This document shows positions 8,788 through 33,368 of a stretch of 64,000 nt of DNA, piece by piece (position 1 is the stretch's first letter; every line of letters begins with the position of its first letter). The stretch lies in assembly GCF_001441535.1 (NCBI RefSeq), contig NZ_LMAU01000007.1, forward strand, positions 62,001-126,000. The letters run 5' to 3'. The notes beneath the pieces were generated by a model, which saw only the letters and a program-made list of their open reading frames with translations, was not told the DNA's origin and did no database searches. This stretch comes from Tsuneonella troitsensis. GTDB lineage: Bacteria > Pseudomonadota > Alphaproteobacteria > Sphingomonadales > Sphingomonadaceae. Position numbers and translations under genes: made by a program.

Positions 8788-11345
8788 GCGCCCGCGATCC
8801 CCTGGCCGAATACAACCGCAAGCGCGATTTCAAGCTGACGGCGGAGCCTGCCGGCAAGCGGGCAAGCTCCAGCGGCGGCAACCGCTTCATCGTCCAGAAG
8901 CACGATGCGACCCGCCTGCATTGGGACCTGCGACTGGAAGCGGACGGCGTGCTGAAAAGCTGGGCGGTGACCAAGGGTCCCTCGCCCGATCCCGAGATCA
9001 AGCGGCTCGCGGTGCGGACCGAGGACCACCCGCTATCCTACGCCGAGTTCGAGGGCACGATCCCCAAGGGCGAATACGGCGGCGGCACCGTGATGCTGTG
9101 GGACCGCGGCACGTGGGAACCGGTCGAGGGCAAGAGCTGGAAGGACATCGACAAGGGCCACCTGCACTTCACGCTGACCGGCGAACGCATGAACGGCGAG
9201 TGGCTGCTGATCCGCCTGAAACCCCGCCCCGGCGAAAAGCGCGAGAACTGGCTGCTGCGCAAGATTTCCGACGAATTCGCCGAAGAGGGCGACCCGTTGG
9301 TCGAACACGCGCTGACCAGCGTGCTGACCGGGCGCACGATGGCCGAGATCGAGGCGGATACCGGCGGCGAGCACTCGCTGCAGGGCAAGAAGGGCGATGC
9401 CTTCGCGGCGGAGATGAAGAAAGCGGCGAAGCACAACGCCAAAGTCCTCCCCGTCACGGGGAGGGGGACCACCCGCAGGGTGGTGGAGGGGGCGGGTCCC
9501 AAGCGCGGGGTGGGAGGATCGAAACCACCGAAATTCCGCGCACCCCAGCTCGCCACGCTCGTCGACAGCGTGCCAGCAGGCAATCGCTGGATGCACGAGA
9601 TCAAATTCGACGGGTACCGCGCGCTGATCGCGGCGGCCGGGGACAAGGTCCACGTCTTCACCCGCAGCGGCAAGGACTGGACCGCCAAGTTCGCTCCGCT
9701 GGTGGGCGCGATCGCCGCGCTCGACCTGCCACCGGTCCTGATCGACGGCGAGATCGTCGCTTACGGGAAGGACGGCAATCCCGATTTTTCGTCGCTCCAG
9801 GCAGTCCTCAAGCGCGGACACGGATCGGAGGGCGAAAAGGACAATCTCAGCTTCCACGCCTTCGACCTGCTCGAAGCCAACGGCGAGAACCTCGCCAAAC
9901 TGCCCAACATCGAGCGGAAGGAACGGCTGGAGGCCCTGCTCAAGGGCGTGCAGCCGCCGGTCCACGTGGCCGATCACGTCATCGGAGCAGGGGAGAAGCT
10001 CTACAAGGCGATGTGCGACGCCGGGCAGGAGGGGATCATTTCCAAGGCCATCGACGCGCCATACCGGTCCAGCCGCAGCAAGAGCTGGGTCAAGGTCAAG
10101 TGCACCCGGCGGCAGGAATTCGTGATCATCGGCTGGAAGAAGTCGTCCGCGAAGGGGCGTCCGTTCTCTTCGCTCCTGCTTGCCCAGCACGAGGGAGATT
10201 CCCTGGTGTACAAGGGCAATGTCGGCACCGGCTTCACGCAGGACACGATGGCAGAGCTGGCGGGCACGTTCGCCAAGCTGGAGCGCAAGACGCCGCCCGC
10301 CGAGGTCGATCGGGTATCGTCGCGCGGAGTCACCTGGCTCAAACCGGATCTCGTGGCAGAGGTCGCGTTCGCCGAATTCACTGCCGACGGCAACGTCCGC
10401 CATGGCAGCTTCCTGGGCCTGCGCGGCGACAAGAAGGCGAGCGCGGTCGTGCCCGAGACGCCCGAAAAGGCGCCCGAGACAGACGACGCGGTGACGATCA
10501 CCAACCCCGACCGGGTGATCTTCCCCGAGAGCGGCCAGACCAAGGGCGAGCTTGCCGAATACTACCAGGCCGTCGCGCCGCTGATGCTGCCATGGGCCGC
10601 GCAGCGCCCGATCAGCCTGGTCCGTTGCCCCCAGGGCCGCGGCAAGAAGTGCTTCTTCCAGAAGCACGACAGCGGATCGTTCGGCCCGCACGTCCACCAC
10701 GTACCGATCGTGGAAAAAGACGGCGGAGCGGAGGATTACCTATACGTCGAGGATGCCGCGGGTCTGATCGCCTGCGTGCAGATGGGCACGATCGAATTTC
10801 ACGGTTGGGGTTCGCGGTCGTCCGCCGTCGAAAAGCCCGACCGGATGATCTTCGACCTCGACCCCGACGAAGGGCTCGATTTCGCGGACGTGAAGACCGC
10901 CGCCAAGGACATTCACGACCGCCTGAGCGACCTCGGCCTTGCCAGCTATGCCATGCTGTCGGGCGGCAAGGGGGTGCACGTGGTGGTGCCGCTGACGCCC
11001 GGCCACTCGTGGGAAGCGCACAAGGATTTCGCCCGCCGCTTTGCCGAGGCGCTGTCGCTGGCCGAGCCGGACCGCTTCGTCGCGACGATGAGCAAGGCCA
11101 AGCGCAAGGGGAAGATCTTCATCGACTGGCTGCGCAACCAGCGCGGCAGCACCGCCGTGCTACCCTATTCGGCACGGGCCCGCGAAGGGGCGCCGGTCGC
11201 GATCCCGATCGCCTGGGGCGAACTCAAGGATTTCGACCACGCGCACCCGTTCTCGATCTCGGACGCGAAGAAGCTGCTGGCCCGCGCGAAGAGCAAGGGA
11301 TTGGCGGGATGGTGCTTTGCCGAGCAGGCGTTGCCCGAGATCTGA
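8784..11345 (+). CDS. ligD: ATP-dependent DNA ligase LigD (phosphoesterase-ligase-polymerase)
   Basis: The 853-residue NHEJ end-processing and ligation enzyme carries all three modules. An N-terminal 3'-phosphoesterase (about residues 25-150) contains FIVQKHDATRLHWDLRLE. The ligase domain (about 250-550) contains HEIKFDGYRAL with the adenylated Lys at about 274. The C-terminal primase-polymerase domain (about 565-853) contains the FDLDPDEG metal motif and SGGKGVHVVVPL. The order PE-LIG-POL is the Pseudomonas/alphaproteobacterial arrangement. The linker between PE and ligase contains translated repeat DNA (separate entry). The ATG at 8784 overlaps the stop of the MgtC-like gene. Confidence 0.95.
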   Translation: MSARDPLAEYNRKRDFKLTAEPAGKRASSSGGNRFIVQKHDATRLHWDLRLEADGVLKSWAVTKGPSPDPEIKRLAVRTEDHPLSYAEFEGTIPKGEYGGGTVMLWDRGTWEPVEGKSWKDIDKGHLHFTLTGERMNGEWLLIRLKPRPGEKRENWLLRKISDEFAEEGDPLVEHALTSVLTGRTMAEIEADTGGEHSLQGKKGDAFAAEMKKAAKHNAKVLPVTGRGTTRRVVEGAGPKRGVGGSKPPKFRAPQLATLVDSVPAGNRWMHEIKFDGYRALIAAAGDKVHVFTRSGKDWTAKFAPLVGAIAALDLPPVLIDGEIVAYGKDGNPDFSSLQAVLKRGHGSEGEKDNLSFHAFDLLEANGENLAKLPNIERKERLEALLKGVQPPVHVADHVIGAGEKLYKAMCDAGQEGIISKAIDAPYRSSRSKSWVKVKCTRRQEFVIIGWKKSSAKGRPFSSLLLAQHEGDSLVYKGNVGTGFTQDTMAELAGTFAKLERKTPPAEVDRVSSRGVTWLKPDLVAEVAFAEFTADGNVRHGSFLGLRGDKKASAVVPETPEKAPETDDAVTITNPDRVIFPESGQTKGELAEYYQAVAPLMLPWAAQRPISLVRCPQGRGKKCFFQKHDSGSFGPHVHHVPIVEKDGGAEDYLYVEDAAGLIACVQMGTIEFHGWGSRSSAVEKPDRMIFDLDPDEGLDFADVKTAAKDIHDRLSDLGLASYAMLSGGKGVHVVVPLTPGHSWEAHKDFARRFAEALSLAEPDRFVATMSKAKRKGKIFIDWLRNQRGSTAVLPYSARAREGAPVAIPIAWGELKDFDHAHPFSISDAKKLLARAKSKGLAGWCFAEQALPEI
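9446..9490 (+). repeat. REP-like double palindrome inside ligD
   Basis: Two perfect 7-bp hairpins stand side by side: CCTCCCC (9446-9452) with GGGGAGG (9458-9464), and ACCACCC (9468-9474) with GGGTGGT (9478-9484), followed by a run of purines. This resembles the extragenic palindromic repeats scattered between genes of sphingomonads and Caulobacter. Here it is translated in frame as the Gly/Arg-rich linker (about residues 221-240) between the phosphoesterase and ligase domains of LigD. Confidence 0.65.
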
Positions 11346-11347
11346 CG

Positions 11348-12139
11348 CTAGAGCCCTTCGGCGATGTCCATCCGGCCCGCATCGCCAACCGAGCTTCCCC
11401 CGTCGACGTCGAGGATGGTGCCGGTGACATAGGCGGCCGAGGGCGAGGAAAGGAACACGGCCGCCTCGGCGATCTCCTCGATCTGGCCCCAGCGTTTCAG
11501 AGGTATGCGATGCTCGCTCGCCTGCCGCAGCGCGGGATTGGGCGCGAGCCGGGCCATGCCTTCGGTCCCGTCGATCGGCCCGGGCGAGATGCCGTTCACG
11601 CGCACGTGCGGGCCCCACTCGATCGCCAGCGTGCGGATGACCTGGTTCACCCCCGCCTTCGCGGCACAGGCATGTACCTGCAATGCCATCGCCTGTTCCG
11701 CCTGACCCGCGGTGATCGCGATCAGCGAGGCGGGCGTGTTCAAAAGGTCGTGGCACGCGCGGAAGGTATTGAATGTGCCGAGCAGGTCGATGTCGACCAC
11801 CGTCTTGAACGCATTGGCCGACATGCCGAGCGCGGGGGCGAGGAAGTTGCCCGCCGCCCCCGCCACCACGATGTCGAACGCGCCGAACCGGTCGCTGGCG
11901 GTCTCCAGCGCGCCGCGGATCGCCGCGAAATCGCGCACGTCGGCGCTGAGGCCCAGGGCATGGTGCCCGATCGCCTCGGCCGCGCGGACCGCCTTGTCGG
12001 GATCGCGCCCGCAGACCGCCACGTGCGCACCGAGCGAGGCGAACCGCTTGGCTATGCCGAGGTTGATCCCGCTCGTCCCGCCGGCCACGAACGCGACCTT
12101 GCCTTCGAGCAGGCCGTCGCGGAATGCCGATCCGTTCAC
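11348..12139 (-). CDS. SDR family, 2,4-dienoyl-CoA reductase-like (peroxisomal DECR type)
   Basis: The 263-residue short-chain dehydrogenase has a GGTSGINLGIA cofactor motif near residue 20, GAAGNFLAPAL near 95, and the segment LQVHACAAKAGVNQVIRTLAIEWGP near 165-190. The last two features are those of the DECR2-type NADPH-dependent 2,4-dienoyl-CoA reductase, where the usual catalytic Tyr is absent and Lys is kept. It would remove double bonds during beta-oxidation of unsaturated acyl-CoAs, which fits the acyl-CoA dehydrogenase gene 13 bp upstream. The start is GTG (12137-12139), preceded by GGGGAGAAG. Confidence 0.8.
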   Translation of the reverse strand: MNGSAFRDGLLEGKVAFVAGGTSGINLGIAKRFASLGAHVAVCGRDPDKAVRAAEAIGHHALGLSADVRDFAAIRGALETASDRFGAFDIVVAGAAGNFLAPALGMSANAFKTVVDIDLLGTFNTFRACHDLLNTPASLIAITAGQAEQAMALQVHACAAKAGVNQVIRTLAIEWGPHVRVNGISPGPIDGTEGMARLAPNPALRQASEHRIPLKRWGQIEEIAEAAVFLSSPSAAYVTGTILDVDGGSSVGDAGRMDIAEGL

Positions 12140-20729: not shown

Positions 20730-21149
20730 TCACAAACAGCCAGGGAGTGGTCAGGCAAGGTCGCAGCGTTTGTCCTGTTTTGCGAGGATTTCGATCCAGC
20801 TGAAGACCTCGGCGATGTTATCGTTCGCCTTGCCGGCCTGTTAGCGATCGCACCGTCTCCAGTGGCGAAATTATTGGGCTCTCAACCCAGGCGTGGTGTT
20901 GTCGACCGCCAGCTGGCCGCGGAGGCCTTCGAAAGCGCCGCTCTGACACTGGTAGGCTCCGAGATCGGATACCTACTGTCGCGATCTCCAAACGGAACAG
21001 CTGTCGCCTCGACCTGGATTCCCGGAATGGGTGAAGAGCACACGCTGAAAGCGGCCGACCCGGTTCCGGCGCTGTGCGGAGCCATTGCGCTCACCTGCCT
21101 GAGCATAGTCTCGGCACATCCGTCTGTTTCCCGCTCGCCGGCCAGTTAA
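20709..21149 (+). CDS. Conserved-looking hypothetical protein
   Basis: A 146-residue soluble protein beginning with TTG at 20709 or at a later start. The C-terminal half, LVGSEIGYLLSRSPNGTAVASTWIPGMGEEHTL, has the look of small uncharacterised sphingomonad proteins. The N-terminal half is helical and acidic (FCEDFDPAEDLGDVIVRLAGLL). Its TAA overlaps the stop of the convergent FixJ-like gene by 4 nt, a typical close packing of real genes. Function unknown. Confidence 0.5.
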   Translation: MVDALPHSQTAREWSGKVAAFVLFCEDFDPAEDLGDVIVRLAGLLAIAPSPVAKLLGSQPRRGVVDRQLAAEAFESAALTLVGSEIGYLLSRSPNGTAVASTWIPGMGEEHTLKAADPVPALCGAIALTCLSIVSAHPSVSRSPAS

Positions 21150-21781
21150 TCGAGATCCGCCTCTGTAACGAGGCGCACGACTTCGGTTGAGGATCGAGCT
21201 TCAAGGCGATCAATTACATTAGCCCGATGAATTTCGACGGTTCGCGGACTAATGCCAAGGTGGTTTGCTATCTCCTTGCTCGAATAGCCATGGGCCAAAC
21301 CGCGCATAACTTGGTGTTCGCGTGGTGACAGCCGGGAAATGAGTTTCAGGGCGCGTGCACGTCGCTCCCGACGCATGTGCTCCGCGTTCGTCCGCCCGAT
21401 CGCTTCGGGAAGGCGAGCCGCAACGGCGTCCGGATCGAATGGCAAGCGCCAGTAGTCGACTGCACCGGCCCGGATCGCATCTACCACCCGCTCGAGCGTG
21501 GCTTCGGCCGAAACGGCAACGAGCGGAAACCAATCCCCCCGCTGGGTCATCAACGCGGCCGACTTCTCTATCGCATCCTCTTCGTCGTGCACGAGAAGCA
21601 TCGAACGCCTACCGGGCCAGTATCGCTCCAGTTCTGTCGTGTCTTCCACCGGGACAGTGTAGGCAAACCAAGAGATGCTGTTGAAGAGGGTCGCTCGCAG
21701 GCGAGCATCGCTGGCGACGACGACGACCGACCTGACTTCGTCCAGTTCGTTCCGATCGAGCATGGGGGAGATGGAGTTCAT
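21146..21781 (-). CDS. FixJ/NarL-type regulator with degenerate receiver
   Basis: The 211-residue protein has a receiver-like N-terminal domain (about 15-125) and a LuxR-type HTH at the C-terminus (RLSPREHQVMRGLAHGYSSKEIANHLGISPRTVEIHR). The receiver is altered: the acidic pair reads ASD, the residue after the phospho-acceptor position VHD is EED instead of a xMP turn, and the switch Lys is Leu (RLPFD). Phosphorylation control is therefore doubtful. It is the last gene of a six-gene minus-strand run and probably regulates that locus or the next one. Confidence 0.8.
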   Translation of the reverse strand: MNSISPMLDRNELDEVRSVVVVASDARLRATLFNSISWFAYTVPVEDTTELERYWPGRRSMLLVHDEEDAIEKSAALMTQRGDWFPLVAVSAEATLERVVDAIRAGAVDYWRLPFDPDAVAARLPEAIGRTNAEHMRRERRARALKLISRLSPREHQVMRGLAHGYSSKEIANHLGISPRTVEIHRANVIDRLEARSSTEVVRLVTEADLD

Positions 21782-22276: not shown

Positions 22277-22600
22277 TCACAGGAGACCTCGCCGCCGCAT
22301 GCTGACCATCGACTTGCGCCCAATCACGAAGTGATCGTGCACCACCAGGCCAATTGGCCGGCAAAGCGCCACGAGCTGCCGCGTAGCGACTACGTCGTTG
22401 GCGCTCGGACAGGGGTCTCCCGAGGGGTGATTGTGGAAGAGCAGCATCCCGCGGGCGTTGTTTGCGAGCGCAGTCTCGATCAAATCGCGATAATCGATGG
22501 TGATTCCGTTGTGATCGCCGGCGCGTATGAAATTGCTTATGTATTGTCCGTCGGCGTCGTGGAGCGTGAATGCGAGATGTTCGATCCGCGCGCGAGACAA
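22277..22600 (-). CDS. RadC-like JAB domain protein
   Basis: At least 107 residues form the JAMM/JAB metalloprotease-like domain of RadC/DUF2466: FHNHPSGDPCPSAND carries the His-x-His and Asp metal ligands, and VVHDHFVIG and SMRRRGLL follow as usual. The N-terminal helix-hairpin-helix part of full RadC is absent, as in phage- and island-borne short versions. The only canonical start is the TTG at 22600, but codon character of the same frame extends about 30 codons further upstream, where it overlaps the membrane-protein gene. So the true start, or a frameshift, is unresolved. Role: unknown; RadC is no longer considered a repair protein. Confidence 0.7.
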   Translation of the reverse strand: MSRARIEHLAFTLHDADGQYISNFIRAGDHNGITIDYRDLIETALANNARGMLLFHNHPSGDPCPSANDVVATRQLVALCRPIGLVVHDHFVIGRKSMVSMRRRGLL

Positions 22601-23473: not shown

Positions 23474-23992
23474 CTAGACAATCTCCGAAAATGCCTGGGC
23501 CACTGCGAGCCCGCAAAGCAGCACCATCGCCAGGGCGAGGGCGAGCAGCGGAATCGCGGCAATTCTCCAGGCCTTCCCGAACCGTGCATCGAGAGCCTCC
23601 AGACCCTCCGGTGCGACCTGGTCCCGAAACTCGAACGGCTCACTGGCGAGCACGTCGGAGAGTCTGAATTGGGTCGACCTTGGCAGGTCTGGCACGGTGT
23701 CTGGCGAAGTGATCAGGTACTCGTCACGGGCCAAAAATCGGGGGGGCCAATTTTCGGCCCCCTCGTCACGAAGGTAGATGAACACCTGTGCGGTTTCGTT
23801 CCGGTCGCGCGTACGCCACTTTCCTCGAACGAGCTTGATTTGTTTGTCGACGGTGTTGGGTGTCATTCCGAGATCGAGCGCAATCTGCTTGCTCGACTTG
23901 TGCTGCGCAAGATGTGCGAGAATTTCCCGTTGCTTTGCTGTCAGCTGCTCCAGGGAGCGGTTCAGCTCGAATGTCTGCGATATGACGTTCAT
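23474..23992 (-). CDS. Membrane-anchored LuxR-type HTH protein
   Basis: The 172-residue protein carries an N-terminal LuxR/GerE-like HTH (LTAKQREILAHLAQHKSSKQIALDLGMTPNTVDKQI, about residues 17-55), a polar linker of about 80 residues and a single C-terminal membrane helix (IPLLALALAMVLLCGLAVAQAF). No receiver or ligand domain is present. Such tail-anchored HTH regulators could be released by proteolysis or act at the membrane; which applies is not visible. It is the first gene of the six-gene run ending with the FixJ-like regulator. Confidence 0.75.
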   Translation of the reverse strand: MNVISQTFELNRSLEQLTAKQREILAHLAQHKSSKQIALDLGMTPNTVDKQIKLVRGKWRTRDRNETAQVFIYLRDEGAENWPPRFLARDEYLITSPDTVPDLPRSTQFRLSDVLASEPFEFRDQVAPEGLEALDARFGKAWRIAAIPLLALALAMVLLCGLAVAQAFSEIV

Positions 23993-24324: not shown

Positions 24325-24711
24325 ATGCCCCAGACCTCTCCCAAGATTCTCATCGCCGACGACGAACCGCTACTCACTGAATTACTGGAATTCCGCTTGT
24401 CCGCTCGCGGGTACCAGACAATCGTCGCGCGTGATGGCCGGGAAGCGCTGGCCATACTTGCCGATGACAAGCCTCAAGCCGTGTTGCTGGACATGATGAT
24501 GCCGGTCCATGATGGACTCGAGGTTCTGCGCCGTATGCGAGCGAGCGATCAGCACGCATCGACCCCTGTCATCATGCTAACAGCCCGCAGGGGAGAAGCC
24601 GACGTCATCGGAGCGCTTGAACAGGGCGCCGACGATTACCTGGTCAAGCCGTTCCTTCCCGAAGAATTGCTGGTTCGCCTAGCCCGGCTCCTCGCTGGAA
24701 AGACAGCATGA
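24325..24711 (+). CDS. Single-domain response regulator
   Basis: A 128-residue stand-alone CheY-like receiver with an acidic pair ADDE (11-13), phospho-acceptor Asp56 in LLDMMMPVHDG, Thr in MLTARRG and switch Lys in LVKPFLPEEL. All residues for phosphorylation are intact, and there is no output domain. It opens the operon with the YaiO-like porin, HEAT protein and GT2 synthase, overlapping the next gene by 4 nt. Its likely phosphodonor is the HPt protein encoded tail to tail at the other end of the locus. Confidence 0.92.
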   Translation: MPQTSPKILIADDEPLLTELLEFRLSARGYQTIVARDGREALAILADDKPQAVLLDMMMPVHDGLEVLRRMRASDQHASTPVIMLTARRGEADVIGALEQGADDYLVKPFLPEELLVRLARLLAGKTA

Positions 24712-25733
24712 GCCTTGGGCAATCGTCTCTTCGCCTCGCGGCGACGCTGGCGCTCGCGATCCTGTCAACGGGCGCGATGGCGCAACAGGCCAACCCATAC
24801 GAGGCGGGCGTAGCTGCACGATTGAATGGCAAGCCCGCTGATGCCAAACGCCTTCTCGAGCGCTGGTTGTCGGAGCATCCGGACGACATCGACGCCCGGT
24901 TGCAGCTTGCCTATGCCGAGCTTGCACTCGGCAGCCTCGACGAAGCGGAAGCTGGCTTCAGGGCCGTCCTGCTTGCCGCACCCGACTATGTCGACGCGCG
25001 GTCCGGCCTCGACCAGGTCCGCGAACGCCGTGTGCAAGCAGGCGAATCTCGCACGGCGCAGATTGCGCTTGAGGGAGCATTGAGCGACCTGTCGGGAAAT
25101 CAGCAGGGATGGACCGAGGCGGCTCTCGACGTTGAAATCCCGACGGGGGACACAATCCTTGGCGGCCGCGTGAGCCATTACCGCCGCTTTGGCCTTGAGG
25201 ACCTTGAGTTCACCGGACGCGTCGGATTCCATCCGTCAGAAAACCTGTGGCTGCGCTTGCACATGGGCACCGCGCCTCATGCAGATTTTCGGCCGCAGTT
25301 CGAGATCGGAGGCGGGGCGGACCTGCGGCTTGCTACGACGAGCGGAACCGTTCTCACCATCGATACGGCTTACCAGAAGTTTCCTTTGCAGGATGTCGTC
25401 AGCATCAACCCTGGCATCGTCCAGTATTTCGATGAAGGTCGCACTTGGCTGACCCTTCGCGGGATTGGTACGGTCGCCGGCGATGGTCCCCTCGAGATTG
25501 GCGCACTCGTGCGGTTTGATCATGCTCCGAGGGACCGCTGGCGACTCTTCGCAGGGGCAGCGACCGGCCCCGATACCGACTTGGGCATTGTCACACGGGT
25601 TAAAGCTCTCTTCGGCGGCATCGAGGCGCCGCTGGGAGGAGTCGTATCTGGCAGTGCTGCGCTTTCACGCGAGTGGCGCGAGGTCGGAGACAATCGAACA
25701 GAGCTGCGCGTGACCCTTAAGGCGCGGTTTTGA
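24708..25733 (+). CDS. YaiO-like outer-membrane beta-barrel with TPR domain
   Basis: A 341-residue exported protein: signal peptide 1-25 (cut after AMAQ), one to two TPR units (about 30-105; NPYEAGVAARLNGKPADAKRL, IDARLQLAYAELALGSLDEA), then an antiparallel strand-rich region (about 120-341) ending in KARF, the terminal-Phe signal for outer-membrane insertion. This is the YaiO layout. TPR plus barrel in one chain parallels PgaA, BcsC and AlgK-AlgE, which guide polysaccharides out. With a GT2 synthase two genes downstream, an export-pore role is likely but inferred. Confidence 0.8.
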   Translation: MSLGQSSLRLAATLALAILSTGAMAQQANPYEAGVAARLNGKPADAKRLLERWLSEHPDDIDARLQLAYAELALGSLDEAEAGFRAVLLAAPDYVDARSGLDQVRERRVQAGESRTAQIALEGALSDLSGNQQGWTEAALDVEIPTGDTILGGRVSHYRRFGLEDLEFTGRVGFHPSENLWLRLHMGTAPHADFRPQFEIGGGADLRLATTSGTVLTIDTAYQKFPLQDVVSINPGIVQYFDEGRTWLTLRGIGTVAGDGPLEIGALVRFDHAPRDRWRLFAGAATGPDTDLGIVTRVKALFGGIEAPLGGVVSGSAALSREWREVGDNRTELRVTLKARF

Positions 25734-26764
25734 CCGCTACGCTCCAGTCGCTGTGGGAAGTATCGCTGCTGCTGTGCGTTTTCGCACTGCTCGCTATCGC
25801 GGGGCTGTTGCTCGCGCGGGTGGTGGGCGAGCGAAAAGCCAACAAGCGGGAAAGCCTGCGCCGGCAATTGCTACCGCAACTTCTACGCGGTGAGCCTGTG
25901 CCAGTCGAGAGATCGCGCGTGGCGCGTCGAATGGCTGCCGACCTGACAATCGAACTCGCCGAACTCGTACAAGGAAATGATCGTGAAGGCTTTCTCGCGG
26001 CGGCCTCCCTCGCCGGTGCCGACGCAGAACTAGTGCGCCGGCTGCGTTCCAACGCCGCGCAGGACCGTCTCGTTGCGGCGGAAACGCTCGCGATGTTCCC
26101 GCCGTATGCGTCCGCCGTGTCCGCCGTCGCACTGAGCGATCGCAACGCCGACGTTCGCCTCGGTGCCGCGCTTGCACTGGCACAGGAAGGTCGTGCACCG
26201 CCAGTGGGCAAACTCGTCCGTAGCCTCGGTATTGGCTCGAAAGAGCAATCCCTGCTTGTCGTTTCGCTGATGCGCGATCTTGCGCGCACCAATCCTCACG
26301 CAGTCGAGGCCCTGCTGTATGATCTCGAGGTACCCGATACCGCCAAGCTGGCCGCCACGGATGCACTGGCGGAGAGCAGCAGCGTTGATCATGAAGCATT
26401 AGTCGCCTGGATGGCCGAGGCGTCCGAAGAAGATAGTGACCTCAGACCGCGCATTTTCCGTGCGCTGGGGCAGCTGGGTCATCCGTCTGGCCACGTCGCA
26501 ATTCTCGCAGGGCTCGACAGCGAACGATGGCAGGTGCGCAGCGCCGCAGCAGAAGCCGTGGGCCGCTCGGCACTGCATTCCGCGATTCCGCGGATTGTCC
26601 AGCTGCTTGCCGACGATCAATGGTGGGTACGCTTCCGGGCAGCCGAAGCGCTGACCCGCCTTGGCGCAGAGGGACGTCTCGCTCTTCAGCGCGCGGCTGC
26701 CGACCCTAATTGGATCGTGCGCGAGGCGGCTAGTACCATCCTGGCCGAGCAGGCCGCGGCATGA
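25730..26764 (+). CDS. Membrane-anchored HEAT-repeat protein
   Basis: A 344-residue protein with an N-terminal membrane helix (about 9-30, SLLLCVFALLAIAGLLLARVV), a basic linker, and at least five HEAT-type helical pairs (about 90-340), such as HVAILAGLDSERWQVRSAAAEAVGR and RIVQLLADDQWWVRFRAAEALTRLG. HEAT arrays act as scaffolds. It lies between the outer-membrane barrel and the synthase, so it may tie export and synthesis together. The start is TTG, overlapping the preceding stop (TTGA); its own stop overlaps the synthase ATG. Confidence 0.8.
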   Translation: MTATLQSLWEVSLLLCVFALLAIAGLLLARVVGERKANKRESLRRQLLPQLLRGEPVPVERSRVARRMAADLTIELAELVQGNDREGFLAAASLAGADAELVRRLRSNAAQDRLVAAETLAMFPPYASAVSAVALSDRNADVRLGAALALAQEGRAPPVGKLVRSLGIGSKEQSLLVVSLMRDLARTNPHAVEALLYDLEVPDTAKLAATDALAESSSVDHEALVAWMAEASEEDSDLRPRIFRALGQLGHPSGHVAILAGLDSERWQVRSAAAEAVGRSALHSAIPRIVQLLADDQWWVRFRAAEALTRLGAEGRLALQRAAADPNWIVREAASTILAEQAAA

Positions 26765-28200
26765 TCGGCCCTCCAGCGTGGGCTGATCAATGGATGATCG
26801 GCGCGGCAGAACTCATCGCACTGATCGTGATCCTCACGGGGCTGTTGCAGATCGGCTTCTATCTAATTCAGCTGATCTTCGCAGCGATAGCCCTTTCATT
26901 TCGTCCTCCGGTACCGAGGGGTGCAACCTTGTGGCGGCGCTATTCCGACCAGGCCCCGCCGATTTCCATTTTAGCGCCAGCCTTTAACGAGGAGCTGACC
27001 GTCGTGGAGAGCGTGCGTTCGCTGCTATCGCTCCAATATCCCGATTTCGAGATACTCCTGATAAACGATGGGTCGAAGGACGGCACCCTCGCCAGACTCA
27101 TTGACGCGTTTGGGCTGGCGCCTGTCGCGCGTTATGTCGACAACGCGGTTCCGCACGCCGCCATTCGAGGATTTTACGCCAATCCCGCCCTTCCCCGTCT
27201 CCTCGTCATAGACAAGGACAATGGCGGCAAGGCGGATGCGCTGAATGCCGGCATAAACGCCAGCCGCACCCCGTTGTTCTGCGCGATAGACGCGGATTCG
27301 ATTCTCGAGCCCGATGCGCTGCTCAGGGTCGTTCGCCCGTTCATCGACGAACCCAACCTCACCATCGCCGCGGGCGGAACGATCCGGATCGCCAACGGGT
27401 GCACGATCGATTCAGGACGCGTGATCGATGTCCGTTTGCCCCGCAACTTCCTCGCTCTGGTCCAGATCATGGAATACTTGCGCGCGTTCCTGATGGCGCG
27501 CCTTGCACTCGGCAAAATGCAGGTTCTGACGGTCATCTCGGGTGCGTTTGGATTGTTCAGCCGACAACGTGTCGTCGAGGTCGGCGGATACAGCCACGCA
27601 ACGGTCGGCGAGGACATGGAGCTCGTTATAAAGCTGCATCGGCACATGCGTGACATCGGCACGCCCTACCGGATCGAATTCATTGCCGAACCCGTTTGCT
27701 GGACGGAATGTCCAGAAGACCTCGCGGTACTCGGCCGCCAGAGAAGCCGGTGGCAACGCGGCGCACTCGAGTGCTTTTCCAAGCACAAAGATATGTTCTT
27801 CAACCCGCGCTACGGACGGATCGGATTCATCGGGTTCGGCCAGATTCTGCTGGTGGATGTCGTGGGGCCCGTAGTCGAGGTCCTGGGATACCTGCTGGTC
27901 CCATTGCTCTACGGGCTCGGCCTACTGGCCTTGCCATGGCTGCTGGCCTTCCTGTCGGTGACCGTTACCTTCGGGGTCTTCGTAAGCGTAGCGACCCTCA
28001 TCCTGGAGGAAGTGCAACTCCGGCGGTTCCCGCGAGCTCGTGCCATTCCAGTGCTGGCGGCGATCGCCGTGGTCGAGAACCTTGGCTACCGCCAGCTGTC
28101 CAATTTGTGGCGAATGCAGGGTTGGTGGCAGTTCCTGCGCAAGCAGCAGGCTTGGGGTACTATGACCCGCAAGGGCTTTGGGGTACCCCCCTCCTCCTAA
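26761..28200 (+). CDS. Processive-type family 2 glycosyltransferase (polysaccharide synthase)
   Basis: The 479-residue integral membrane GT2 has a helix at about 15-45, a cytosolic catalytic domain (65-335) and three to four C-terminal helices (345-440). Motifs are KDNGGKADALNAG (about 150), DADS (about 176), GEDMEL (about 283) and RQRSRWQRG, the R/QxxRW signature of processive synthases such as PgaC, hyaluronan and cellulose synthases (about 326). No PilZ domain is attached, so direct c-di-GMP control is not indicated. The product sugar is unknown. It is the last plus-strand gene of the locus and overlaps the HPt stop by 4 nt. Confidence 0.88.
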   Translation: MIGPPAWADQWMIGAAELIALIVILTGLLQIGFYLIQLIFAAIALSFRPPVPRGATLWRRYSDQAPPISILAPAFNEELTVVESVRSLLSLQYPDFEILLINDGSKDGTLARLIDAFGLAPVARYVDNAVPHAAIRGFYANPALPRLLVIDKDNGGKADALNAGINASRTPLFCAIDADSILEPDALLRVVRPFIDEPNLTIAAGGTIRIANGCTIDSGRVIDVRLPRNFLALVQIMEYLRAFLMARLALGKMQVLTVISGAFGLFSRQRVVEVGGYSHATVGEDMELVIKLHRHMRDIGTPYRIEFIAEPVCWTECPEDLAVLGRQRSRWQRGALECFSKHKDMFFNPRYGRIGFIGFGQILLVDVVGPVVEVLGYLLVPLLYGLGLLALPWLLAFLSVTVTFGVFVSVATLILEEVQLRRFPRARAIPVLAAIAVVENLGYRQLSNLWRMQGWWQFLRKQQAWGTMTRKGFGVPPSS

Positions 28201-28466
28201 AGAGAGTCTAGCAGGCGCAGCAAACGATCGGTTGCCAGCCGGGGATCGTCCCCTCGCTCTATCGCGTCTTCCAACTCGATCGCTGCCTGGCCGAGGGAGG
28301 GATGGCCGAACATGCCAGCGATACCCGCTAACTTGTGGGCCAACTCGCCGAGTGCTGCCATATTGCCCTCACTTACCAGGACGCGCACCGCTTCAGCTTG
28401 CCCGGGTGCCTGCGCCGCGAACCGTTGGGCGAGGTCCGCCAGCTTGTCCTCCAGAGGATTGTTCAC
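28197..28466 (-). CDS. Histidine phosphotransfer (HPt) protein
   Basis: An 89-residue four-helix HPt with phospho-accepting His44 in LAHKLAGIAGMFG. It is the shuttle between the receiver of the hybrid kinase (two genes upstream) and downstream receivers, namely its operon partner and perhaps the stand-alone receiver at 24325. The ATG overlaps by 4 nt the stop of the adjacent receiver gene. The position tail to tail with the synthase gene suggests the relay controls that machine. Confidence 0.85.
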   Translation of the reverse strand: MNNPLEDKLADLAQRFAAQAPGQAEAVRVLVSEGNMAALGELAHKLAGIAGMFGHPSLGQAAIELEDAIERGDDPRLATDRLLRLLDSL

Positions 28467-28825
28467 AGGAGACTACGCACCTGCGCCGCCAAAGTCATCG
28501 GATCGAATGGCTTAGCAATAACCCCGATGGCATCGAGCGTCTGGAAGGTCTGAATCTCGTTGCGCTGGGCGCGTGCAGTGACGAACACCACCGGGATTGG
28601 AGCTGTCGACGGATCGGCGCGCAATCGGCTGAGGACTTCGGGTCCGTCCATACACGGCATCATTACGTCGAGAAGGATCAGGCCCGGCGTCCAATCCTGG
28701 ATCATCGCGAGCGCCTCGGTGCCGCCAGCGGCGGTTCGCACCTCGAAATGGGGATCGAGCGAGAGCGCCATCTCCGCGATTTCGCGGATATCGGGTTCGT
28801 CGTCGACGTAGAGGACACGGGTCAT
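28463..28825 (-). CDS. Single-domain response regulator
   Basis: A 120-residue CheY-like receiver: VDDEPD (8-10 acidic pair), Asp53 in LILLDVMMPCMDG, Thr in VVFVTARAQ and Lys in VIAKPFDP. There is no output domain. The ATG at 28823-28825 overlaps the kinase TGA by 4 nt, and the stop overlaps the HPt ATG by 4 nt, so kinase, receiver and HPt are one translationally coupled unit. Confidence 0.88.
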   Translation of the reverse strand: MTRVLYVDDEPDIREIAEMALSLDPHFEVRTAAGGTEALAMIQDWTPGLILLDVMMPCMDGPEVLSRLRADPSTAPIPVVFVTARAQRNEIQTFQTLDAIGVIAKPFDPMTLAAQVRSLL

Positions 28826-30933
28826 GCGGCCTCCCGCTCTGCGCGCGCCACAAGCGCCATCGTCGTTTCGACGAGGGTGGCAATGGGGCTGCGGCTCTTG
28901 ACCAGGACAGCGTCGACGTCGGACGTGTCCGGGGGGTCGTCCAGCGCGGTGAAGACCACAATCGGAATGCCGGGCACCGCTTTTCTCAATTCGGGGACGA
29001 GGTCCAGGCCGTTGTCTGGAGGAACGACTGCGTCGACGACAACCCCGGCAAATGTCTGCCTTGCGATTTCCCGGCGCGCGTCCGCGAGCGAGTTGACCGA
29101 AACGAGCGCCGCGCGATGGACGAAAGCACTCGCGACGACCGACAGGCAATCCTGATCGTCGTCGATGTGGAGCAGGACTGGCAAGCCCGCATCGCCCCCC
29201 GATTGAAGGGGAGTGTCGTCGCAATCTGCCATGGGAAGCTCGACAGTAAATATCGTCCCGCCGCCGGCGCGGTCTGCGAAGCCCAGTGTTCCGTTATGCC
29301 GCTCAGCTATTTCCTTGGCGATGGTGAGTCCAAGACCGGTCCCTCCGCGCCGCCGGCTGTCCGAGCCGTCGGCCATTGCGAATTTGCCGAAAATTCGGGC
29401 GCGGAAGGCCTTTGGGATGCCCGCTCCGCGGTCCAGAACGGATATCCTCGCTTGGCCGTTGACCGTATCGATGGCCACTTCGACTGTTCCTCCTTCGGGC
29501 GAGTGCTTGATCGCGTTCGAAACGAGATTGGTCAGCAATTGCTCGAGCCGATCAGGATCGCCCATTATCGTGACGGGCCACGGCGGGATGGACACCGCCA
29601 GCGTGACCGAGTGCGCCTCACCGAATGACTGGTTCGCCGCGACTGTTCGATCAACTAGTGGTCCGAGCGGCAATCGACGCAGGTCAAACTGCATCTTGCC
29701 GGATTCAATCTTCTCTATGTCGAGGATATCGTTGATCAGGCGGATCAACCGCTCGCAATTGCTATGAGCGATCGAGACCAACCGCGCAGCCTTATCGCCA
29801 AGGGGTCCGGCCGCTCCGGCAGAGAGGAGACCAAGCGACCCTCCGATCGATGTAAGCGGGGTGCGTAGTTCGTGGCTAACGGTCGAGACAAACTCGGTCT
29901 TCATGGCCTCGATACGCCGCCGTTCGGTCACGTCCCGAATGACGACGACGTAGGAGACCTCCTCGCGGTCGGAGAGCCGGCTGATCGAAACGTCGGTAGC
30001 GAGCGTTGAGCGATCGCTCCGGCGGCCAATAAACTCCTGACGCTGGCCCGACCCTTCCTCGCCCGCCGCACCGACGACCCGAAGCCACGCGAGGCTTTCT
30101 GCAAAGGGAACCGGCTTCGCCATCAGGTCGGTGTTGTGCATGCCCACCAGTTCATCCTGAGTGTACCCGAATAACCGCGTCACACTGGGGTTGACCTCGC
30201 GGATGTAGCCCTCGTCATCAAGCACAAGCATGCCATCAACCGCGCTGTTGAGGATCGCGCGATTGCGCCTGCTGAGACGGCGGATGCGTTCGAGCGCGGC
30301 GCGGCGAAGGCTCATTGTGCGCCAGATGAAGACTGCCAAGATGCCTAGGAGCAGGGCCAGCCCACCCAGGGCACCGTTGATCAGCCTCTCGGCGGTCTGC
30401 CGGCTCGTGTTTCTTGCCTCGGTGAGCTCGCTGAGGCGCGCGCCCTCGATCCGGTCGAGCCGCGCGATCTCCGCGCGGATAGAATCCATGAGCCGCCTGC
30501 CCTCGCCGCCAGCGACCATGCGTTTCGCGGCTTCCTGCTGTCCGTTCGCAACAAGATCGATCGTGCGTTCCGCGAACTGAATTTTTCGGTCTGACAACTG
30601 CCGGATCGCGGAAAGTCCACCGACCGAGCTATCGCTTGACGCAGAACCCTGAAATCTTGCCGCGATACGCGCCCTCGCCTGGTCGTAAGGTGCAAGAAAA
30701 CTCGGGTCGCCCGTGACGACGTATCCACGCTGCCCTACTTCGATATCCTGATAATCCGAAAGCATCCGAAGCAGATCCTGCCGTGCAGAAGCCGATTGCT
30801 CGACGGAAGCCCGCAGGTTGCGGCTCTCTGCGAATTCGCGCTGGATCTCCACGAACACGAACAGCAGGCTCGCCGGGACAGCAAGCAGCGTCAGCCATGC
30901 GAGAATTTGCTTTAGGACAGTCTGTCGTGCCAT
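28822..30933 (-). CDS. Hybrid sensor histidine kinase (CHASE3-PAS-HisKA-HATPase-REC)
   Basis: The 703-residue membrane kinase has an N-terminal helix (10-30), a periplasmic helical CHASE3-like domain (about 40-175, with QDIEVGQRGYVVTGD), a second helix (about 185-205), PAS (about 225-335, SAVDGMLVLDDEGYIREVNP), HisKA with SHELRTPLTS (His about 354), HATPase (GDPDRLEQLLTNLVSNAIKHS, RGGTGLGLTIAKEI) and a C-terminal receiver with Asp at about 634 in VVVDAVVPPDNG. CHASE3 ligands are unknown. It starts the kinase-receiver-HPt operon facing the exopolysaccharide-type operon. Confidence 0.92.
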   Translation of the reverse strand: MARQTVLKQILAWLTLLAVPASLLFVFVEIQREFAESRNLRASVEQSASARQDLLRMLSDYQDIEVGQRGYVVTGDPSFLAPYDQARARIAARFQGSASSDSSVGGLSAIRQLSDRKIQFAERTIDLVANGQQEAAKRMVAGGEGRRLMDSIRAEIARLDRIEGARLSELTEARNTSRQTAERLINGALGGLALLLGILAVFIWRTMSLRRAALERIRRLSRRNRAILNSAVDGMLVLDDEGYIREVNPSVTRLFGYTQDELVGMHNTDLMAKPVPFAESLAWLRVVGAAGEEGSGQRQEFIGRRSDRSTLATDVSISRLSDREEVSYVVVIRDVTERRRIEAMKTEFVSTVSHELRTPLTSIGGSLGLLSAGAAGPLGDKAARLVSIAHSNCERLIRLINDILDIEKIESGKMQFDLRRLPLGPLVDRTVAANQSFGEAHSVTLAVSIPPWPVTIMGDPDRLEQLLTNLVSNAIKHSPEGGTVEVAIDTVNGQARISVLDRGAGIPKAFRARIFGKFAMADGSDSRRRGGTGLGLTIAKEIAERHNGTLGFADRAGGGTIFTVELPMADCDDTPLQSGGDAGLPVLLHIDDDQDCLSVVASAFVHRAALVSVNSLADARREIARQTFAGVVVDAVVPPDNGLDLVPELRKAVPGIPIVVFTALDDPPDTSDVDAVLVKSRSPIATLVETTMALVARAEREAA

Positions 30934-31254: not shown

Positions 31255-32049
31255 TCAGTCGGCGCGGTCGGGATTCTCGCGTTGCTGTTCCTGGCGACGC
31301 GCCGTCTTCTCCAGCTTGCCCTCGCTCATCGCGGAGATAAGCAGCGCGCCTTCGCCGGTGAAGTTGGCGGCGGGAACGGTTGCCGCACCATCGTCGGTCA
31401 TGACGACGACCTGATGAACCTGTCCCCGTGCGTCGGCGAGTACCCCGCTCACGGTGCCGATCCGTTCGCCGTCGTCGTCGCTGACAGGCATTCCGCGAGC
31501 GATATCGAAGCTGCCTGCCGCCTGGCCTGCGGCGCTCCCGGCAAGCGCTAGCTGCCCAGCGGCACCCGAGAATACACCGCTCGCGGCAGCCGAGCCGGAA
31601 CTGGCTACCGCGCCTATGATCTTGCGCCCCGCGCCGGCTGCGCCGCGAGCGGTGCCAACCGCGCTGCCCGCGAGACCTCGGACCGCATCGGTCCCGAGCA
31701 GCTGCGCTTCGGCCCTACCCGATCCGCTTGCCTCTCCGCGGCCTGCGACCGAACTGCCAACGCTGCCTACCGACGCGCCGATCGACTGGTCGAGCGATCC
31801 CGAGCCCTCGGCGTCGGCACTGCGACTGGCAGCCACGCGACCCGATTTGCGATCAACTGTCTGTGTTCCTCGCGTCTCACCGCGTGCCGCACCCGTGCCC
31901 CGCGTGACCGTCTCGACGGAGCGGATAGGAAGGTCGAGCGAGCCGGCGCCCCGCAGCGTGCCGCCAAGGCTTCCGCCACCAAGAAGCTGTGCCTGGCCCG
32001 GTGCGGCGATCAGGAGGAGCGCAGCGGTGCCGAAAAAAATGATCTTCAT
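31255..32049 (-). CDS. Secreted Gly/Ser/Ala-rich protein with PRC-barrel-like end
   Basis: A 264-residue protein with a signal peptide (MKIIFFGTAALLLIAAPGQAQ), a low-complexity middle (about 25-185) of Gly, Ser, Ala and Arg, and a C-terminal segment (about 190-250; DDDGERIGTVSGVLADARGQVHQVVVMTDDG) resembling a PRC-barrel strand set. PRC barrels bind in varied complexes; here the exported location suggests an envelope role. It stands alone with its own terminator, downstream of the subtilase gene and in the same direction. Function unknown. Confidence 0.65.
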   Translation of the reverse strand: MKIIFFGTAALLLIAAPGQAQLLGGGSLGGTLRGAGSLDLPIRSVETVTRGTGAARGETRGTQTVDRKSGRVAASRSADAEGSGSLDQSIGASVGSVGSSVAGRGEASGSGRAEAQLLGTDAVRGLAGSAVGTARGAAGAGRKIIGAVASSGSAAASGVFSGAAGQLALAGSAAGQAAGSFDIARGMPVSDDDGERIGTVSGVLADARGQVHQVVVMTDDGAATVPAANFTGEGALLISAMSEGKLEKTARRQEQQRENPDRAD

Positions 32050-32168: not shown

Positions 32169-33368
32169 TCAACGACATTTTCCGCACAGGAGACCACGAC
32201 CGTAGACACTGTCGGCGCCCTTCTTGCCCAAGTCGATAGCCTCGTTGTCGGCCGCCGCGCGCCAGTCTCCGCCGATTGCGGCCGCGATCCGCGCGGCCGC
32301 CAGAGGTGCCGCGAATGATGTACCTCGCAGCCTGATCCGCCGCCCCCTGGCGTCGAATCCGGTCATGTCGGCAGCGGGAGCAGCATAGTCGAGGTCAAGC
32401 GCGCGCCCGGCCTCGATTAGCGCACGATCACGGCCGTCGACGCCAGTCACTGCGATGACGCCGGGATAGCTGGCCGGGTAGGCATATGGTGAGGCCGGGC
32501 CATCATTGCCGACCGGGGCGACAATCACCACGCCCTTTCCTCGCGCTGCGGCCACCGCCCGCGACAGTAGCAAATTGTCGGCACCGACGAGGCTCATGGT
32601 AATGACCTTCACTCCATCCGCGACCAGCCATCCCAGGGCGCGCGCGACGGCGGTTGCACTGCCGCCGGCCGGATCGGTACCATAGACATCCGCCACCGCG
32701 ATGGACCGCACACCGGCACGCCTGAGCAGCGAGACCACTGCGCTGCCGTGGTTGCTGGGCGCCGGGGCGCCCCTTGCGAAGCCCTTGCTCGCTGCGACCC
32801 TCTGACTTTCACCTGGCGCACCATCGATCACGCCCACGCGGGCTGATATCGGCGCTGCTTCGGCTTTGAGGTCAGCGGCACTTGGGGCCCGCCCCGCTTG
32901 CTCGTAGACATGGTCGGGTGTCCAGCGCACGCCAGGTGCGGCGCGATCCATCAGCGCGGAGACCTCTCGCATCCTGACGCCGGGAGGGAGCTGCAGACGT
33001 GTGACCGGTAGATCCAGCCCCTCGATCGCCTCCCGCTCGAGTACGCGGAACCCCAGAATGCGGAGCCCAGAGAGTGCAGGTTCACCGGGCTCGAACATCA
33101 GGATCTCGCCCCGTCGTGCCGGGTAGCCATCCGCTGTGAGTTCCAGGAGCTTTGGATTGGCGCGCACGAGCTTCTCGATCCGCCCCGCGCGCAGTTGCGT
33201 GAGCTCCCGCGCGCTGAAAACCACCGGCTCGACCGTGCCCATGGCGCGGTCAATAACCCGGTCTATACCGCCGGTGGGCAAGGGCACGCCCGGCAAGCCC
33301 AGCTGCGCTAAGGCGGCTCCCGGGAGGAACAGCAGCAGCACGGCGAGGCAGGAAAATCGCTTCAGCAT
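32169..33368 (-). CDS. S8 (subtilisin-like) serine peptidase, exported
   Basis: A 399-residue exported protease: signal peptide 1-21 (PGAALAQ), a pro-region to about 165, and an S8 domain with Asp in ARVGVIDGAPG, His in NHGSAVVSLL, the oxyanion Asn in APVGNDGP and catalytic Ser in RGTSFAAPLAA. The Asp motif deviates from the usual DTG. It ends LLCGKC, close to its last catalytic element. It is divergent from the ECF sigma/anti-sigma genes with only 118 bp between start codons, so the protease may be a target or a sensor of that pair. Confidence 0.85.
   Translation of the reverse strand: MLKRFSCLAVLLLFLPGAALAQLGLPGVPLPTGGIDRVIDRAMGTVEPVVFSARELTQLRAGRIEKLVRANPKLLELTADGYPARRGEILMFEPGEPALSGLRILGFRVLEREAIEGLDLPVTRLQLPPGVRMREVSALMDRAAPGVRWTPDHVYEQAGRAPSAADLKAEAAPISARVGVIDGAPGESQRVAASKGFARGAPAPSNHGSAVVSLLRRAGVRSIAVADVYGTDPAGGSATAVARALGWLVADGVKVITMSLVGADNLLLSRAVAAARGKGVVIVAPVGNDGPASPYAYPASYPGVIAVTGVDGRDRALIEAGRALDLDYAAPAADMTGFDARGRRIRLRGTSFAAPLAAARIAAAIGGDWRAAADNEAIDLGKKGADSVYGRGLLCGKCR

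Follow-up and report, generated by a model that had tools for sequence, protein, structure and literature searches.

Synthase-dependent polysaccharides are well known to be controlled by cyclic di-GMP (c-di-GMP) via the synthase or a partner subunit, as set out in the available part of PMC12802240. The same part of that paper describes another kind of control in Myxococcus xanthus, where the single-domain receiver EpsW, in its phosphorylated form (EpsW~P), stimulates the exopolysaccharide (EPS)-initiating transferase EpsZ post-translationally. In this study, we analyzed a locus at positions 24325-30933 of a 64,000-nucleotide stretch of Tsuneonella troitsensis DNA, referred to here as the window, in which seven genes lie in two head-on operons. 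The best explanation of this locus, to which we give a probability of about 0.6, is a synthase-dependent EPS system in which a HEAT protein is the partner of the synthase and a phosphorylated receiver controls the output.

The plus-strand operon encodes, in order, a stand-alone receiver (RR1), a YaiO-type TPR-barrel protein, a HEAT protein, and a family 2 glycosyltransferase (GT2). The minus-strand operon encodes a hybrid kinase, a second receiver (RR2), and an HPt protein. With the starts chosen here, every neighbouring pair overlaps by 4 nt, including the convergent GT2 and HPt genes. A sequence-only reading of the window had reported these genes, the overlaps within the plus-strand operon, and the head-on junction, and all the genes were found at the positions it gave. 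Pfam and NCBIfam scans of the window proteins matched its domain calls. The features are as follows.

24325-24711 (+): RR1, a stand-alone receiver of 128 aa without an output domain (PF00072, 100 bits), presumably the relay's output receiver
24708-25733 (+): YaiO-type TPR and barrel protein, predicted in the outer membrane (TPR_19, 40 bits; TIGR04390, 62.8 bits)
25730-26764 (+): HEAT protein with a TTG start (HEAT_2, 58 bits)
26761-28200 (+): GT2, a predicted membrane glycosyltransferase (PF00535, 75 bits)
28197-28466 (-): HPt phosphotransfer protein of 89 aa with a GTG start (PF01627, 42 bits)
28463-28825 (-): RR2, a second stand-alone receiver (PF00072, 88.6 bits), with an ATGA overlap with the kinase stop; the start is a chosen ATG at 28825, and the open frame extends further upstream
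28822-30933 (-): hybrid histidine kinase, CHASE3-PAS-HisKA-HATPase-receiver, with two hydrophobic helices (Pfam, hydropathy); its C-terminal receiver scores 29.7 bits, slightly below the Pfam cut-off of 30.2

As in Pga/Ica, the window has a PgaC-like GT2 and a porin made of TPRs and a barrel. However, it also has a HEAT protein and phosphorelay genes, and its GT2 falls far below the PgaC/IcaA cut-off. E. coli PgaB and PgaD showed no significant BLASTP match to the seven window proteins, and tblastn with PgaB found no match at 1e-6 in the window or in 93 related loci. The GT2 fold is like that of BcsA, and the TPR and barrel arrangement is like that of BcsC and PelB; the window barrel protein differs from these in having five TPR helices where those proteins have a long TPR arm, and a barrel of 14 strands by count. 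Neither the PilZ nor the BcsB family was found among the seven window proteins using Pfam. In the yaiO-yaiP-yaiS genes of E. coli, an outer-membrane YaiO lies near a GT2 as in the window, but there is no HEAT protein, receiver, or HPt, and there is a putative deacetylase. E. coli YaiO itself had no BLASTP match to the window barrel protein. Simple membership in Pga, Bcs, or Yai was thus ruled out by the absent parts and the scores.

The closest precedent for control is EpsW/EpsZ, in which a phosphorylated single-domain receiver regulates an EPS enzyme. The window has such a receiver, which by analogy may act in the same way. The target EpsZ is however the initiating phosphoglycosyl transferase of a Wzx/Wzy pathway, and the available part of the source (PMC12802240) describes neither a GT2 synthase nor a HEAT partner. 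The parts of the locus are of known kinds, and their combination is without description in the literature searched by title and abstract, a search whose coverage left most subscription journals and bioRxiv outside. To our knowledge, no HEAT solenoid has been described earlier as partnering a membrane enzyme under receiver control, and no dedicated search for one was made.

The synthase, its HEAT partner, and the barrel protein

The GT2 carries the motifs ND103G, D177xD179, GE284D285, and Q327RSR330W331. In the alignment, D103 was present in 78 of 79 GT2s, and the DxD, ED, and QxxRW residues in all 79. The predicted structure (mean predicted local distance difference test score (pLDDT) 93.0; predicted template modelling score (pTM) 0.91) has helices at 6-46, 321-341, 349-385, 391-420, and 428-459. 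The model thus has a GT-A-like domain flanked by a single long helix at the N-terminus and three at the C-terminus, with QRSRW on an interface helix. Chlorella virus hyaluronan synthase was the first Foldseek match and BcsA the eighth. The closest named family in NCBIfam was PgaC/IcaA, at 131.8 bits against a cut-off of 422.3. BLASTP showed 26% identity with E. coli PgaC (E=5.6e-28) and 25% with E. coli YaiP (E=1.9e-10). Judged by sequence and model, the GT2 is a predicted membrane synthase of the PgaC, hyaluronan synthase, or BcsA type. The topology of a processive synthase, which the sequence-only reading had proposed, is borne out by the motifs, the flanking and interface helices, and the fold matches.

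By hydropathy, the HEAT protein has one N-terminal hydrophobic helix (residues 11-29), and six of the next 15 residues are K/R. Positively charged residues tend to lie on the inner side of the membrane; the HEAT solenoid is therefore predicted to be cytoplasmic. We then determined how closely the HEAT protein is paired with the GT2. A scan of named genomes with the GT2 alignment gave 561 confirmed relatives, of which the best 80 loci were taken. In 77 of these 80, a HEAT gene was immediately upstream of the GT2, although some of the HEAT matches were weak (e.g., 25 bits in the Thermoplasmatota locus L101). Two of the misses, L067 and L095, are at contig ends, with 61 and 301 nt of upstream sequence. 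The third, L058, has a truncated GT2 and no HEAT match in 9 kb. In this locus, from Brevundimonas lutea (L058:9031-10146), the GT2 is without about 100 N-terminal residues and the HPt is kept, with no match for HEAT, barrel, or receiver; it is either a decayed locus or a misassembly. Among five further class-wide loci, HEAT was found in four, and the fifth (L112) stops at a contig edge. In the phylum-wide search, HEAT was upstream in every one of the 13 GT2 matches at E <= 1e-100; three of these genomes (G000, G091, and G423) recur in the other counts.

HEAT and GT2 overlapped by 4 nt in 55 of 79 loci, compared with 10 of 44 for YaiO/HEAT and 19 of 39 for receiver/YaiO; in these counts the start nearest the junction was taken, which biases them toward short overlaps. 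In 85 loci (1.31 Mb), the HEAT profile had no match outside the gene upstream of the GT2. In a small control, the profile had no match in five GT2 loci of more distant kinship (L128-L132, with flanks of about 1.5 kb) or in the E. coli regions that contain pgaC, yaiP, and nfrB. No HEAT-receiver or HEAT-GT2 fusion was found at E <= 1e-4 in L016-L134, E. coli loci excluded. The adjacency and translational coupling across phyla, both read from sequence, suggest that HEAT is probably an obligate partner of the GT2.

The barrel protein matched the TIGR04390 YaiO domain at 62.8 bits against a cut-off of 32, and PF19413 YaiO at 23.0 bits, slightly below the cut-off of 23.9. Its model (pLDDT 92.8, pTM 0.75) shows a signal-like N-terminal helix, five TPR helices (30-110), and then the strands of a C-terminal barrel, of which we counted 14. 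In Foldseek, PelBC ranked first (TM-score 0.46), BcsC second (0.43), and OmpG third (0.54), all by query length. The model thus supports an outer-membrane protein built like a TPR-fused EPS porin, as the sequence-only reading had held, and its role as the polymer pore is presumed. A YaiO profile match was found in 43 of 57 diderm loci and in none of nine loci from actinobacteria, Bacillota, and an archaeon, where loci were assigned by record title and two of the nine are from one strain. This distribution fits the expectation for an outer-membrane pore.

Spread of the cassette

In a search of 149 family genomes, the HEAT protein gave 14 matches at E <= 1e-5, counting its own genome. The order RR1-YaiO-HEAT-GT2 was kept in all 12 other strong relatives (L003-L014). 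The thirteenth match, G019, has HEAT and GT2, and its receiver, without an acceptor Asp by eye, is in frame with the barrel. The sequence-only reading had looked to other genomes for co-occurrence of HEAT, barrel, and GT2; these 12 relatives, and the HEAT-GT2 pair in the named loci, provide it. Chance clustering of the cassette genes was ruled out by this recurrence within the family and across phyla.

In a GT2 tree, 52 cassette GT2s were separated from seven outgroup GT2s with a Shimodaira-Hasegawa-like approximate likelihood-ratio (SH-aLRT) support of 99; the tree was built by a quick method and the outgroup branches are long. By label, the sequences in the tree come from thirteen phyla, one of them archaeal and the other twelve bacterial. 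Cassette-type GT2s were present in 13 of 398 phylum genomes (E <= 1e-100) and 7 of 385 class genomes (E <= 1e-90), so the system is patchy. At E <= 1e-60, the GT2 was matched in thirteen plasmid records, among them records from Mesorhizobium, Erythrobacter, Deinococcus, and three haloarchaea. Six of them were opened, and all six had a HEAT protein next to the GT2, either annotated or scored; the HEAT protein of the Emticicia plasmid is below the Pfam cut-off (25.0 vs. 27.7 bits). These results suggest that the HEAT-GT2 pairing spans at least 12 bacterial phyla and archaea and belongs to a widespread, unnamed secretion system.

Two features of the sample bear on these counts. The profiles rest on 13 rows from the family (8 sequences for HPt and 12 for the kinase); for distant phyla, the counts of YaiO, receiver, HPt, and kinase are therefore lower bounds. 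The loci are also not independent, as they include several Mesorhizobium strains, and L062 and L063 are one strain.

In an Erythrobacter aureus plasmid (L138), a flagellar gene cluster surrounds the cassette, and a PilZ protein is encoded nearby. This setting suggests a switch from the motile to the attached state.

Phosphorelay genes and control of the synthase

Pfam found the parts of a phosphorelay in the window, namely HisKA, HATPase, HPt, and receivers. Among the nearest upstream receivers aligned, the phospho-acceptor D56 was present in 69 of 70 and K108 in all 70, and the phospho-site His of HPt was present in 30 of 30. Across relatives, identity was 41-81% for RR1 and 24-66% for HEAT, although receivers are generally well conserved. 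Upstream sequence of at least 4 kb was available for 66 loci; of these, 60 had a receiver upstream on the same strand, 31 had an HPt, and 45 had a kinase. The window HPt is one of only two matches at E <= 0.01 in the 2.9-Mb genome, so its place by the cassette is not background.

Five close relatives (L016-L020) all have a convergent HPt after the GT2, followed by a full-length kinase in four; RR2 was resolved by the open reading frame (ORF) picker in three. In seven more distant relatives (L021-L027), large hybrid kinases adjoin the cassette in five, two of which (L022 and L024) have an HPt domain at E <= 1e-5. A convergent HPt with an upstream kinase occurs in Mesorhizobium and one Labrys, a tandem downstream arrangement in Brevundimonas, and kinase-receiver-HPt fusions in Sphingobium. 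In other phyla, HPt-REC-REC and HPt-REC-GGDEF-REC proteins lie immediately upstream of the cassette, and HPt was found in 5 of 10 upstream proteins scanned. These results support a frequent linkage of HPt, receivers, and kinase to the cassette, as read from gene neighbourhoods, while their arrangement and fusions vary. The sequence-only reading had placed a phosphorelay beside the machine, and this agrees with the related loci.

We propose the following mechanism. The CHASE3 kinase would sense a periplasmic signal, and phosphate would pass from the kinase to its own receiver, then to HPt, and then to RR1. RR1~P would dock on HEAT and turn polymer synthesis up or down; RR2 would be a second phosphate target, perhaps a sink. 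HEAT and GT2 would form an obligate pair, with HEAT in place of PgaD or BcsB. The GT2 would polymerise a nucleotide sugar, most likely UDP-N-acetylhexosamine, and push the chain across the inner membrane, and the barrel would let it out through the outer membrane. That the locus is a polysaccharide synthesis and export machine is highly probable. For direct control of HEAT-GT2 by RR1~P we see about an even chance, based on co-translation, conservation, the linked relay genes, and the analogy with EpsW. The machine is thus well supported, while the switch is what we infer.

Several observations weigh against the proposed system. TM-scores of the GT2 to the synthase matches in Foldseek are only 0.43-0.60. 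Those of the barrel are modest as well and ordinary porins are close behind PelBC and BcsC in its ranking, so the fold match backs an EPS pore without proving it. Among the 66 loci above, 6 were without a match for the receiver, 35 for HPt, and 21 for the kinase, the HPt and kinase profiles being small. In one close relative (L017:11061-11417 (-)), the kinase is cut down to its terminal receiver while the cassette and HPt are otherwise complete. In L028:6354-7694, a receiver without the acceptor Asp, a proline/alanine-rich stretch, and the YaiO barrel lie in one frame, the only receiver-barrel fusion in L016-L134 at E <= 1e-4. In related loci, 7 of 17 double-receiver proteins keep an intact GGEEF between the receivers, and c-di-GMP may therefore matter in these relatives. 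The four long membrane helices of the GT2 make a small synthase, so that a short NodC-like product is possible.

This last point leads to the explanation that the GT2 product is a short oligosaccharide or glycolipid, as for NodC, and not a secreted polymer. The GT2 has only one N-terminal and three C-terminal long helices, and it matches the NodC model weakly (37.8 bits vs. a cut-off of 550 in NCBIfam). However, the TPR-barrel gene is co-transcribed with the GT2, the QxxRW and other motifs are nearly invariant, and both the best fold matches and the best NCBIfam match, PgaC/IcaA, which is itself below its cut-off, are to polymerising synthases or their family; we consider this explanation quite unlikely. 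Somewhat less unlikely is that the export machine is real and RR1 is a relay intermediate or phosphate sink that does not act on HEAT or GT2, with control being transcriptional. RR1 is without an output domain, PMC12802240 notes that a single-domain receiver can take part in a phosphorelay or act as a sink, and there is a second receiver, RR2, in the kinase operon. A LuxR/sigma-like helix-turn-helix (HTH) protein is also encoded about 330 nt upstream of RR1 on the opposite strand (window 23474-23992 (-)). This HTH gene is however not a conserved neighbour, being present in only 1 of 93 related loci. Moreover, RR1 is co-translated with the machine and not with the kinase, its identity range lies above that of HEAT, and the upstream receiver recurs in most loci.

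The third alternative, that c-di-GMP is the true allosteric signal here too and the phosphorelay acts only upstream, is very unlikely. It is favoured by the GGEEF proteins above, by matches of a GGDEF query to 12 of 93 related loci (including the sphingomonad L028 and L029 and the alphaproteobacterial L030), and by eight GGDEF matches in the genome itself, all outside the cassette locus. Yet with Pfam neither a PilZ nor a GGDEF domain was found on any of the seven proteins of the locus, the GGDEF query had no match in the window, and there was no PgaD match. The sequence-only reading had proposed phosphorylation instead of c-di-GMP; this stands for the present locus and not for the family as a whole. 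It may be that phosphorelay and c-di-GMP acted together in the ancestral control and that the window lineage kept only the relay. The L030 protein is an MHYT-PAS-GGDEF-EAL protein encoded some kb from the cassette (8984-11929 (-)), and its ORF cluster covers five loci (L029, L030, L031, L034, and L105).

Product, neighbouring genes, and implications

PF01522-like polysaccharide deacetylases were found in 6 of 93 related loci, three of which are query seeds, and were confirmed by Pfam in L021, L023, and L037. In the genome that holds the window, the single PF01522 match is on a different contig. In a Halosolutus gelatinilyticus plasmid (L136), receiver-HEAT-GT2 is followed by a sugar-phosphate nucleotidyltransferase and glmS. 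These are not general neighbours: the 93 loci and the window yielded one weak glmS match and no nucleotidyltransferase. Three hints tentatively favour an amino-sugar polymer: PgaC/IcaA is the nearest family, deacetylases occur in some loci, and a nucleotidyltransferase and glmS are haloarchaeal neighbours.

Two unnamed families recur near the cassette. The first (L046:4197-5774 and relatives) is present in 13 of 93 loci; searched against PDB, the profile of this family matched a putative GH97 chain (E=6.9e-9). The second (L103:10356-13574, L084:5191-7350, and relatives) is present in 12 of 93 loci; it overlaps the GT2 stop by 4 nt in Bacillus, lies immediately upstream of the receiver in Clostridium, and also occurs in Neomarinimicrobiota and Gemmatimonadota. 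Neither family had a Pfam or NCBIfam match of weight, or a phmmer match with the one member of each tried, and the profile of the second gave no convincing match. The absence of a deacetylase or hydrolase, also claimed by the sequence-only reading, therefore holds at this locus but not family-wide, given the deacetylases and the glycosidase-like first family.

Other genes were observed around the locus in the window. A subtilase-family protein (32169-33368 (-)) adjoins the kinase operon, and a small protein (31255-32049 (-)) with a PRC-barrel match slightly below the cut-off comes after the subtilase gene. A short ORF with an HNHPSGDP motif (22277-22600 (-)) lies near a LuxR-type regulator at 21146-21781; from this motif we take it to be like RadC/JAB proteins.

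We tentatively propose, at a little under even odds, that these loci form a distinct class of system in bacterial phyla and some archaea. In this class, a membrane-tethered cytoplasmic HEAT solenoid would serve the synthase as its obligate partner and would also be the place where a phosphorylated receiver docks, a phosphorelay would set glycan output directly, and the outer-membrane pore would be found only in diderms. The GT2-HEAT module, mostly with a phospho-receiver, is found in sphingomonads, rhizobia, Bacillus, Clostridium, Neomarinimicrobiota, and haloarchaea. Annotations in the plasmid records are generic, namely 'HEAT repeat domain-containing protein', 'response regulator', and 'glycosyltransferase family 2 protein'. 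If the proposal is true, it would be a second general way to couple synthase machines directly to two-component signalling, and it would give a predictable surface polymer to many genomes in which annotation now splits the system into such separate entries.

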